Source of the DNA: an uncultured bacterium
GTDB lineage: Bacteria; Oederibacteriota; PGYV01; Palsa-1178
Direction: 5' to 3'
Assembly: GCA_937889595.1 (NCBI GenBank)
Contig: CALAOR010000078.1
Span: 124,001-188,000, forward strand
DNA length: 64,000 bases
This document shows positions 31,237 through 59,105 of the stretch, piece after piece. Numbering within the stretch: position 1 is the stretch's first letter; each line of letters opens with the position of its first letter. The notes under the pieces were generated by a model. The model was not told where the DNA came from. It worked only from the letters and a program-made list of their open reading frames with translations, and made no database searches. The position numbers were made by a program, and so were the translations under genes.

Positions 31237-31998
31237 TTAAAATGCGGTCCCGATATTGCAGCCAAGGGACGGCGTGAACGAATTCATGTAAGTCGTGCCT
31301 CCGATTGAAGGATCAGCGCTGTCCGTCCTGGTCATGCCGATATTCATCAGGATGCCCAAGGATAGATCGACCACAAAGCCGGAACTTAATATCCACCTGT
31401 AGCCGCCGTGCATACCGTAGGTCACAAAATACTGGTTCACAATTTCGAGCGCAGGGGAATATCCCGGCTGCTCATACTTGAACCTGTAATAATTAAATTC
31501 AGGGCCTACAAACCAGCCGTTCAGGGCTTTAGCCTCGGGGAATATGTTAATAAGGCCGCCTATGACAAAGCCGTATGCTTTCGCGAAGTTCCCGTTCCAG
31601 GAATCGCCCGTGGGCGAGTATCCGGCAGTGAGGCCGAAGCTTAAATTACTTGCGATCTTCCTTTCATAGTAAAGCGCTATGGTGCCGAAAGCAAAATAGC
31701 ACGGGTTAATCGCTATTAAATTCTCCTTTGTTTCCCATCCGCCGTAGTTGACCTGCACGCCTGCATCATCCAGGAGACTGTCGGTTGACTTCTGGTACTC
31801 TTCTTTTGCCAGTTTGAGGTAGTTGCCCAGGTTATCAGTCGGCTTTACCGCGTACGCTGCCTTGAAATATTTGTACGCGTTCTGGTAGTCCTCGTTCTTG
31901 TACGCTTTCACACCGTTTTCCACGTCCGACTTGTAATCCGCATAAACAGAAACTACCAGCAGCATTAATCCAAGAGCTCCTAAAATTACTTTTCTCAT
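31237..31998 (-). CDS. Secreted protein with TPR-like start and outer-membrane barrel-like body
   Basis: The 253-residue protein has a signal peptide ending VYADY. Residues 25-70 look like a tetratricopeptide unit (VENGVKAYKNEDYQNAYKYFKAAYAVKP). The remainder alternates aromatic and polar residues in strand-like blocks (FGTIALYYERKIASNLSFGLTAGYSP, HGGYRWILSSGFVVDLSLGIL) and ends in Phe, as outer-membrane barrels do. It is probably an outer-membrane protein with a periplasmic helical module. No named family is recognised. Confidence 0.7.
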   Translation of the reverse strand: MRKVILGALGLMLLVVSVYADYKSDVENGVKAYKNEDYQNAYKYFKAAYAVKPTDNLGNYLKLAKEEYQKSTDSLLDDAGVQVNYGGWETKENLIAINPCYFAFGTIALYYERKIASNLSFGLTAGYSPTGDSWNGNFAKAYGFVIGGLINIFPEAKALNGWFVGPEFNYYRFKYEQPGYSPALEIVNQYFVTYGMHGGYRWILSSGFVVDLSLGILMNIGMTRTDSADPSIGGTTYMNSFTPSLGCNIGTAF

Positions 31999-54749: not shown

Positions 54750-55982
54750 TCACCCTCCGTACCTGTAATGCCTTATTATCTTCCACGTATTTAAAACATC
54801 CTCCTCGGCAGTATAATCCTGGTAAGAGTGGATGACGTAAGGCGTGCCTGAGTTGTTTTTCCTGTCCGATATTATGCCCGCATGGTACGTGCCTTTATAG
54901 TTCCATATCACCACGTCCCCCGGGGCCCATTCATGCAGGCTAAAGAAATCCGTTTTTACTGTAAGCTCGTCGGCGAACCTGTCGAAAAATATCATTATAT
55001 CGTTATATTGCCCCTCGATAAAATCCGGCTCGGTCTTCATCTTATCCCACATTATCCTGCCCGGATAAACCGTGAGGTTCCTGCGCATGTCCTCCATGAT
55101 AAACGCCTTTAGGTCAATGCCCGCGTAAAGGAACGCTTCAAATACCGCGTTAGTGCCGTAGAAACCGGCGTCCTTGGCTGTGGCTGCCGGTTCCGGATAG
55201 CTTGTCAGGAAAGCTGTACCGGCCCTGACCTCATTTTTTGCGCCTGTGAATATCAGCGCCGCTATTTGCGCGAGGCTTTCAGGCCCGGGAATTACCCTGT
55301 GCCTGTACGCGGCATACAGGAACTTGGCGGATTTTTCCGGCATGGGGTATCCGTTTTCATGGTATTTTAAGTACATCAGGTGCATGTGGGTCGGTGACCT
55401 TTTTTTGTAGGCGTTAAGGCCGGTCCTGCCCACGATTCCCAGCAGATCCCCGGGCTTTACCACCTGCCCCACATCCACGGCAGTACGCGACATGTGCGCG
55501 TAATAAAAAATACCTTTTGTGAAAGGGTCATAAACAAATACATAATTGCCGCCCCTTAACTGGCTTCCCGGCGTCCAGCCGGTATTTATGCCGGTCACGA
55601 CTCCCGGGCTTAAGGAGAGTATATTGACCGGCTTGCCCGTCCTGTCGTCCAAACAGTCCTGGTTTTTGTCCCTTATGAATATGTCCACAGCGGGATGGTC
55701 CTTATGCTGGTTGCCGTCAAAGAAATCATAACCTTTTACTATATAACCTTTGATATCCGCGTCGTATATGGCGTAGCCTTCAAGGGGGAAAACAGGGGTG
55801 TAAGCGGTTATTGTGCCTCCGTTATCTGTGAAATATTGGTCCAGCAGGGGCCGAAGATAACTTAATTTTGCCTGTGCTTTTTCCTTCGGTATACGGCAAT
55901 CCCTGACCGCAAGTTCCATGGCAAACCATTCCTGAGGAGGCGTTTGAGCAATGGCAATTGAACAGCATAAAATAAAAACCAT
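54750..55982 (-). CDS. M23 endopeptidase fused to a DUF1287 domain
   Basis: The protein is at least 410 residues and exported. The M23 metallopeptidase domain (about 75-205) has His96-x3-Asp100 (HPAVD) and His199-Met-His201 with a preceding YYAHMS, so its zinc site looks complete. The end (270-410) matches DUF1287, an NlpC/P60-like family: MEDMRRNLTVYPG, PGDVVIWNYKGTYHAGIISD and IIRHYRY. The DUF1287 Cys motif CTD reads TNA (277-279), so that half probably lost catalysis. The first ATG (55982) gives a signal peptide with no basic residues. The GGGAGG ribosome site at 56021-56016 sits 33 bases further upstream, beside ATA (56012) and ATC (56009) codons, so the true start may be non-standard. 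Confidence 0.8.
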   Translation of the reverse strand: MVFILCCSIAIAQTPPQEWFAMELAVRDCRIPKEKAQAKLSYLRPLLDQYFTDNGGTITAYTPVFPLEGYAIYDADIKGYIVKGYDFFDGNQHKDHPAVDIFIRDKNQDCLDDRTGKPVNILSLSPGVVTGINTGWTPGSQLRGGNYVFVYDPFTKGIFYYAHMSRTAVDVGQVVKPGDLLGIVGRTGLNAYKKRSPTHMHLMYLKYHENGYPMPEKSAKFLYAAYRHRVIPGPESLAQIAALIFTGAKNEVRAGTAFLTSYPEPAATAKDAGFYGTNAVFEAFLYAGIDLKAFIMEDMRRNLTVYPGRIMWDKMKTEPDFIEGQYNDIMIFFDRFADELTVKTDFFSLHEWAPGDVVIWNYKGTYHAGIISDRKNNSGTPYVIHSYQDYTAEEDVLNTWKIIRHYRYGG

Positions 55983-56143: not shown

Positions 56144-56175
56144 TCCCGTATCAGGTCAAGGCCTGTCCACATTTT
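56144..56175 (+). repeat. TATCAGGTCAAGGCCTG-family palindromic repeat
   Basis: This copy lies in the gene-free stretch 56022-56479. Related copies are at 32351-32372, 56412-56493, 58599-58629 and 59071-59105. Confidence 0.6.
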
Positions 56176-56231
56176 TCCTGCCTTTGCGTTAAACCTGCTC
56201 CGGCGGGCTGACACTTGTGGGTTTTGGATCT

Positions 56232-56372
56232 TGTAATCGCACCCTTTCAGGGTGCGCCTATCCCCCCATTGCCTGCGGGTGAACCTCACGAACCCGCCTC
56301 GCGCGCGAAAATATTCTTGTCTTGCTTGTATCCTCAGCCTCATTTAGGCGCGCCCTAAAAGGGCGCGACTAC
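56232..56372. repeat. Pair of oppositely oriented REP-like hairpins
   Basis: CGCACCCT/AGGGTGCG (56238-56256) and CGCGCCCT/AGGGCGCG (about 56347-56366) share flanks of the form TGTA-TCGC ... GCGCCTA in opposite orientation, about 100 bases apart. The open frame between and across them (56128-56343, minus) is Arg-rich with no family likeness and is treated as spurious. Confidence 0.6.
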
Positions 56373-56411
56373 ACGATCCATACAGAGTGCGTCCACACCA
56401 AAAAAATTCCG

Positions 56412-56493
56412 GGGTCAGGACTTGAACTGATACCTGACAAATCCCCCATTCTCAAACTCGTTTTTTATCAGGTATCAGTTCAAGTCCTGACCC
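56412..56493. repeat. Perfect 26-bp inverted repeat inside a broken gene
   Basis: The arms 56412-56437 and 56468-56493 are exact reverse complements (left arm begins GGGTCAGGACTTGAACTGAT) with a 30-base loop. The right arm supplies the stop codon of the truncated frame at 56480. Confidence 0.8.
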
Positions 56494-56587
56494 ATTTTTT
56501 TAGATCCTCGCACTCAACGGCATGGGCCGGGGTTGTTGTCAACAGACAGAAAACAAGTATAAATATGAACAATAATGTTTTTTTCAT
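56480..56587 (-). pseudogene. Truncated secreted-protein gene, cut by a palindromic repeat
   Basis: A strong GAGGAGG ribosome site (56594-56600) overlaps the stop of the preceding gene and leads into an ATG at 56587. The 35-codon frame starts MKKTLLFIFILVFCLL and has a clear signal peptide cleaved after PAHA. It then reads VECEDLKKW before running into the palindromic repeat, whose arm provides a TGA. A complete signal peptide and coupling signal with no mature protein suggest a gene interrupted by the element. No continuation was found beyond the repeat. Confidence 0.6.
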
Positions 56588-56598
56588 TTACAGCCTCC

Positions 56599-57438
56599 TC
56601 ATATACCGGCGGGTCTCAGCAGCACATCCCTTGCTCCGTCTCCAAGCTCCGCTTTCAAAAACTCCATCCCCAGCTGGGTCACATTGGTCTTTACTTTGAC
56701 CGAAGGGATATCCTTGATTATCCTCGATATTTTCATATAGGATTCCGCGACCTCATGGTCGCCCGTGTTTTCAATAAACTTCCAACTCACGACCAATTCG
56801 CGCCCGTCTGCCATATGAATTTTGTACCTCATATGGTACCCGTATTGTTTTTCCGAATCGCCCCAGGCTTCCATAACAACACCCCTCACCGACGTCCACG
56901 GGTAATTGACGGTCTTATCCGGCCATTGGAAAAGGTGGACCCCCGCAGGGTCGATATAATAGAACCTAAGCAGCCCGAATAAAATCACGGGTATCAGCGG
57001 CAGCGTGATTTTTGGGATAAGCTTAAGCAGGCCCATAGTGGCCCCTTTAAAACCAATTTCCGGCTCATTTTCAGCGTCCTTTTCAAACGCCTTCCTGGCC
57101 CAGGGTATCAGCATCTCAACAAGGTTCACAAGTACAAGTATGATCGGCAAAGCCGCCAGCATACCCCCAAAAACATAAAATAACGGCCAGATAAACTGGC
57201 TTAACTCGCCCTCGGGGAAAATAAATGTAAAAGCGTCTTTGGGGATAAACAGCCAGACAAGCTTGAATCCCATGGGAAGCACCTTAAAAACAAAAAACCA
57301 CCCGAAGACCAGTAAAAAAACAAGGTTCAGGATATTCCAGGGGCTTTTGCGCGCCGTCAGCCTTCTGTTCCTGTCTTTAAGGTATTTATCGAGTTTTTCG
57401 TACGCGTCCTGCCAATATCCGCGTGATTGTTCCTTCAT
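56599..57438 (-). CDS. Uncharacterised three-helix membrane protein
   Basis: The 279-residue protein has a basic start (KLDKYLKDRNRRLTARK) and three or four membrane segments: NLVFLLVFGWFFVFKVLP, LFYVFGGMLAALPIILVLVNLVEML and ITLPLIPVILFGLLRFYYI. A soluble carboxy-terminal domain of about 110 residues begins FQWPDKTVNYPW and contains two beta-strand-like stretches (YHMRYKIHMADGRELVVSWKFI). I recognise no family. Its stop overlaps the ribosome site of the truncated gene that follows. Confidence 0.7.
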   Translation of the reverse strand: MKEQSRGYWQDAYEKLDKYLKDRNRRLTARKSPWNILNLVFLLVFGWFFVFKVLPMGFKLVWLFIPKDAFTFIFPEGELSQFIWPLFYVFGGMLAALPIILVLVNLVEMLIPWARKAFEKDAENEPEIGFKGATMGLLKLIPKITLPLIPVILFGLLRFYYIDPAGVHLFQWPDKTVNYPWTSVRGVVMEAWGDSEKQYGYHMRYKIHMADGRELVVSWKFIENTGDHEVAESYMKISRIIKDIPSVKVKTNVTQLGMEFLKAELGDGARDVLLRPAGI

Positions 57439-57517
57439 TCATTCTCCCGTTCCTGCTGAATTCATCCAATTTGCTTCTCGAGTATCATTTCGGGGTCTGA
57501 CCCGATTTTTATTTACC

Positions 57518-58598: not shown

Positions 58599-58629
58599 GG
58601 GTATCAGGTCAAAGCCTGTCCCTATCTTT
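58599..58629 (+). repeat. GTATCAGGTC-family palindromic repeat copy
   Basis: GGTATCAGGTCAAAGCCTG, then TCCCTATC, between the thioesterase stop and the PorV-like start. A related but shorter hairpin (CGGGGTCTGACCCG) lies at about 57490-57505, upstream of the 279-residue membrane protein gene. Confidence 0.6.
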
Positions 58630-59047
58630 ATCCTGCCGGCTGGACCACCTGGCCGATTCCGTTAATATGCTCCAGCATCCCGCCTTCAATCTTCCCTAAT
58701 CTCCTTCTCTTGGTGTCGAAACATACCATCAAAACATCCGCCTTTAAAACAATCTCTTCCTGTCTTTTGATGGTATATTCGAGTAGAAAAGAGACCTTCT
58801 TTAAATCCTTTGAACTCATCTCTATTTCCAGTTTATCGGCAAAAAATATGGGTTTCCTATAATCAATGCTGACTTTGGATGGGAAAAAGGTAATGCCCGT
58901 TTCCTCCACATACTTCATAAAATTGCCATACTTTTCCCCGAACCAGTTCACCCTGCACCATTCCATCCATTCCAGTGGCTTGGAGTAATAGACCTGGCCT
59001 GTTACATCAGTGTCGCTCAAGTGAACTTTAATAGTCATTTTGTACAT
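58628..59047 (-). CDS. YbgC/FadM-type acyl-CoA thioesterase
   Basis: The 139-residue hotdog-fold enzyme has VHLSDTDVTGQVYYSKPLEWMEW, with the catalytic Asp14 and the helix that follows. It probably hydrolyses an acyl-CoA. The ATG at 59047 has AAGGAGC about six bases upstream. The longer in-frame extension to 59101 would run through a palindromic repeat (59071-59105), so it was rejected. Confidence 0.9.
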   Translation of the reverse strand: MYKMTIKVHLSDTDVTGQVYYSKPLEWMEWCRVNWFGEKYGNFMKYVEETGITFFPSKVSIDYRKPIFFADKLEIEMSSKDLKKVSFLLEYTIKRQEEIVLKADVLMVCFDTKRRRLGKIEGGMLEHINGIGQVVQPAG

Positions 59048-59070: not shown

Positions 59071-59105
59071 TATCAGGCATCAGGTAAAGGCCTGACCCCA
59101 TCTCT
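59071..59105 (+). repeat. TATCAGG-family palindromic repeat copy
   Basis: TATCAGGCATCAGGTAAAGG, then CCTGACCCC, between the subtilisin stop and the thioesterase start. Confidence 0.65.

Follow-up and report, generated by a model that had tools for sequence, protein, structure and literature searches.

The question raised by this locus is whether a mobile repeat has cut a gene. The locus lies in a 64,000-nucleotide stretch of DNA from an uncultured peat bacterium (hereafter the window), in which a tiny gene for a predicted exported protein runs into a palindrome. A preliminary description of the locus proposed that the gene had been interrupted by insertion of a repeat. The reading frame and the sequences in front of it are, in the order in which they are read:

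56599..57438, minus strand: gene of 279 aa that precedes the short ORF, without a Pfam or NCBIfam match
56588..56601, minus strand: stop codon of the 279-aa gene with GGAGG immediately after it, read from the sequence
56480..56587, minus strand: short ORF of 35 codons, made up of a signal peptide (1-23), eight native mature codons, and four repeat codons plus the stop

The ribosome site coupled to the preceding gene that was described initially is indeed present: GGAGG lies directly 3' of the TGA of the 279-aa gene, and the ATG of the short ORF follows 11 bp after that stop. Translation of the minus-strand ORF (56587..56480) gives MKKTLLFIFILVFCLLTTTPAHA/VECEDLKKWVRT, in which a complete signal peptide of textbook type has AHA at its end and is followed by VECEDLKKWVRT. 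Using our own simple criteria for an SD sequence and a signal peptide, with 60 first-order Markov windows as the null, we found two such ORF starts in the real window (that of the 35-codon ORF and another at 31998); the random sequences had none. The start of the 35-codon ORF is not a product of chance. The same count speaks against the whole ORF being a chance frame in intergenic DNA, a view that we regard as highly improbable even if it would account for the lack of homologues: no credible homologue was found in 59 genomes (45 of them, G000-G044, from the same phylum as the window, the remainder from other phyla), the best other match, which covered the signal peptide, having E = 0.12, and Pfam and NCBIfam returned sub-threshold matches alone, to the signal-peptide part. 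The start VECEDLKK is reminiscent of DUF1161 proteins; this identity was dropped, the family being present in none of the 59 genomes.

Eight codons after the signal peptide the frame enters the palindrome, which we call E1.

56412..56493, minus strand: E1, a REPIN-like palindromic element of 82 bp, two inverted 30-nt units with a 22-nt spacer

The two arms of E1 (56412-56441 and 56464-56493, 30 nt each) pair at 29 of 30 positions (97% complementary) around a 22-nt loop, and their outer 26 nt form the perfect inverted repeat originally reported, for which shuffled sequences gave no match. The fold z-scores of E1 were -11.3 as DNA and -9.6 as RNA. The entry point is base 2 of codon 32, so that eight whole mature codons precede the repeat and not the ten mature residues counted in the preliminary description; the repeat arm encodes residues W-V-R-T and, as that description stated, the TGA. 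Stops are present in all three frames of E1, and any frame entering in the direction of the short ORF consequently terminates inside it. The target duplications that might have been expected at the repeat ends were not seen: by eye there was none of at least 3 bp, the region held no direct repeats of at least 12, and with CCCCGGA taken as the end of the element a 2-bp AT match results, no more than chance would give. To our knowledge, target duplication is not expected for IS200/IS605-type movement. Rfam gave sub-threshold matches alone, to unrelated hairpin families, which were rejected as the identity of E1 because their scores are generic for long hairpins. E1 is absent from the list of a simple terminator scan, its stem and loop being larger than the limits of the scan. 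A small terminator-like palindrome, TCGGGGTCTGACCCGA followed by T-rich DNA, lies between two genes at 57490-57505 of the window.

E1 belongs to a family of dispersed repeats, and this part of the original proposal stood. BLAST with a 90-bp query found a near-full second copy in the same genome (contig C90, 24996-25078), 93% identical, loop included, and with different flanks, as well as copies that were incomplete or diverged in six relatives, which with its own makes 7 of the 59 genomes; some of the weakest matches, for example that in G004, may be due to chance. A pattern search for half-sites at up to 3 mismatches detected 22 in the genome of E1, against 0 for a reversed control, and gave matches in 5 of the 59 genomes. 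Exact matches in a named genome collection came from 3 records, all of candidate division FCPU426, and among the genomes examined the family is confined to part of this candidate phylum. Because single half-units, of which GGGTCAGGCCTTTACCTGATA is an example, account for many of the copies, E1 is best read as two half-units in inverted order, which is the layout of a REPIN. Some single half-units fold as small hairpins (TCAGG/CCTGA), clearly better than shuffles in only some cases, and short perfect palindromes of the form GGGTCAGG...CCTGACCC, found at 3 places elsewhere, represent a smaller relative of E1. The arms of E1 pair at 29 of 30 positions compared with 26 of 30 in the C90 copy; such near-perfect arms would be consistent with a young copy and, with the intact start signals of the ORF, fit the fairly recent event that had been suggested.

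Three further observations concern this family. In order-level relatives, E1-like arms flank about 140 bp of unrelated spacer (L057/L061, G010:C41:20789-20997; L062/L056, G005:C6:152418-152622), in what may be an extended form of the element. In the window, a half-unit at 59073-59101 (minus strand) codes for the first residues, MGSGLYLMPDK, of a listed 157-aa thioesterase-like ORF, whose true start is probably a later ATG (MYKM). Another degenerate half-unit, at 58601-58637 (minus strand), lies about 5 bp past the stop of the same ORF.

The preliminary description argued that functional genes rarely end in this way. This is contradicted by the available part of PMC3733652, according to which flanking ORFs often take their stop codon from GTAG REPs, and REPs are located within 20 bp of gene 3' ends. 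That source already documents REPs within ORFs or at their ends, and the case of E1 is ordinary. Simple landing at the end of a gene must therefore be taken seriously as an alternative to a cut gene: the short ORF would be essentially complete, encoding a very short exported peptide or a translated leader with its natural end at or just past residue 31, and E1 would have replaced its stop codon, possibly together with one or two residues. The placement of the family lends itself to such a view. Among the 29 E1-family ends with enough flanking sequence, 8 have an ORF of at least 100 aa ending no more than 60 bp before the repeat end, compared with 409 of 6000 random positions (6.8%; binomial P 0.0005, an approximate value as the loci are not a random sample). 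Copies are thus often close behind genes. None of the 29 ends has an ORF of at least 100 aa ending inside the repeat, and among 32 ends scanned an SD-led ORF of at least 25 aa ends in the repeat at the E1 locus only, so that E1 stands out by extending into an ORF led by an SD sequence. A mature peptide of 8-12 residues would however be very short for an exported product, and a conserved relative of the ORF was found in 0 of the 59 genomes. On balance we judge that an essentially complete ORF, with E1 at its end, is unlikely.

Beyond E1 the short ORF is followed by more repeats and then by the next gene:

56227..56373, minus strand: E2, a GTAG-tagged inverted dimer of about 147 bp, with copies in contigs C16 (84%) and C20 (73%)
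56148..56182, minus strand: a further E1-family half-unit, degenerate (GGACAGGCCTTGACCTGATA)
54750..55982, minus strand: peptidase M23 and DUF1287 gene, next downstream on the same strand

E2 starts about 38 bp beyond E1 in the minus sense, opens with TGTAGTCGCGCCC (TGTAG) and reads GGGTGCGATTACA near its end; E2 and the half-unit both lie within about 265 bp after E1. This tract is a REP cluster that fills much of the gap separating the M23/DUF1287 gene from the short ORF, and little unique sequence is left there that could reveal a lost gene end. The pile-up of three repeats at 56148-56493 also lends some weight to the view that the gene was already a decaying remnant, through deletion or earlier repeat traffic, before E1 arrived and cut nothing functional, as does the G003 homologue of the 279-aa gene, which is itself a fragment. 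The SD sequence and the signal peptide are nevertheless intact, unlike what long decay would leave, and we consider prior decay clearly improbable.

The preliminary description looked to a close relative lacking the repeat, but no syntenic locus was found in the genomes searched. The 279-aa protein was matched in 3 of the 59 genomes, its own included; outside its own genome its relatives are L032, the only well-aligned one (44% identity), and the fragment L033, and no signal-peptide ORF follows the L032 homologue. No syntenic empty site was found via the two proteins flanking the 279-aa gene (15 genomes each), the neighbours being kept together in none of the relatives searched, and a scan of a genome-contig collection for a syntenic relative gave none. 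A longer orthologue of the 35-codon ORF, whose absence had been held to argue against a cut gene, was likewise found in none of the 59 genomes; this result has little power as these genomes include no close syntenic relative. After removal of E1 and E2, two of the three junction frames can run without a stop through 36-43 codons, according to which base stands at the junction, and the junction reading without E1, or without E1 and E2, tells nothing about a cut gene.

The genome of E1 contains 8 Y1_Tnp matches, two of which lie about 41 and 101 bp from E1-family copies, where about 0.03 neighbours would be expected within 300 bp either side, a distance chosen post hoc. Among seven relatives, 0 of 15 Y1 matches lay near a listed E1-family copy. 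The link between Y1 transposases and the E1 family is suggestive only. Two other Y1 matches of the same genome lie near long palindromes starting GTAGAGAGGCTGCTTGCTGCC (L005, about 1842-1995; L006, about 1842-1977); these GTAG-headed palindromes in the neighbourhood of Y1 matches are the classical RAYT/REP arrangement.

The likeliest reading, which we hold to be just on the probable side, is that E1 moved by means of a transposase and cut a longer gene for an exported protein, the rest of which was lost in the REP cluster. E1 would be a non-autonomous REPIN-like element, and a Y1 (HUH) transposase acting in trans probably copied it. Its target would have been a site within the 3' part of a small gene, coding for an exported protein, whose translation begins from the SD sequence just after the 279-aa gene. 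The insertion would have exchanged the native carboxyl end for W-V-R-T-stop, and the remainder of the gene, once cut off, would since have been buried or lost among E2 and the half-unit before the M23 gene. The leftover ORF would give a 12-residue exported peptide, for which a function is unlikely, and in the transcript E1 may form a long stable hairpin with A and U runs on either side. In favour of this reading we counted the near-full C90 copy in other flanks, the half-site count against its reversed control, the SD and signal-peptide start not seen in the random windows, the well-paired arms, the repeats that follow E1 and the Y1 matches close to family copies. Against an insertion into a longer gene we counted the missing longer homologue in the 59 genomes, the absence of DUF1161 from them, the missing ORF after L032, the position of the family otherwise outside genes and the Y1 result in the seven relatives.

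As far as the available parts of these sources go, E1 resembles and departs from known repeats as follows. Like REPINs, defined in PMC3116915 as inverted REP doublets, E1 consists of a pair of inverted REP-like units, separated by a short spacer, that form a single hairpin, and its family is dispersed, mostly extragenic and present in a genome with Y1 transposases; unlike them, it has no GTAG tag, about 22 half-sites instead of hundreds, and a transposase link that is suggestive only. This copy number is also below the more than 100 reported as usual for REPs (PMC2817692). With the repeats of PMC3733652, whose two main groups are defined by a GTAG or CGTC tag, it shares short palindromes and inverted dimers near gene ends that sometimes give stops or lie within ORFs; the GTAG tag is carried by E2, whereas E1, beginning GGGTCAGG, has neither. 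Enterobacterial RU-type sequences within genes (PMC2759123) are similarly small mobile repeats that add codons to ORFs, but at 127, 168 and 103 bp they differ from E1, with which they were compared by description only. E1 differs from a classical MITE in lacking a flanking target-site duplication of at least 3 bp. Being palindromic, dispersed and multi-copy, with two inverted units and a spacer in one hairpin, E1 looks like a REP/REPIN element.

The phylum of the E1 host is known mainly from metagenomes. We tentatively put forward, as a less than even possibility, that FCPU426 bacteria carry a hitherto undescribed REPIN family, untagged (GGGG-headed) and still mobile, and that E1, as a member of it, ended a coding gene here and added a new tail of four residues. 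Were an allele found that lacks E1 and is longer, the E1 family would be shown to move and to be able to end genes in its phylum.
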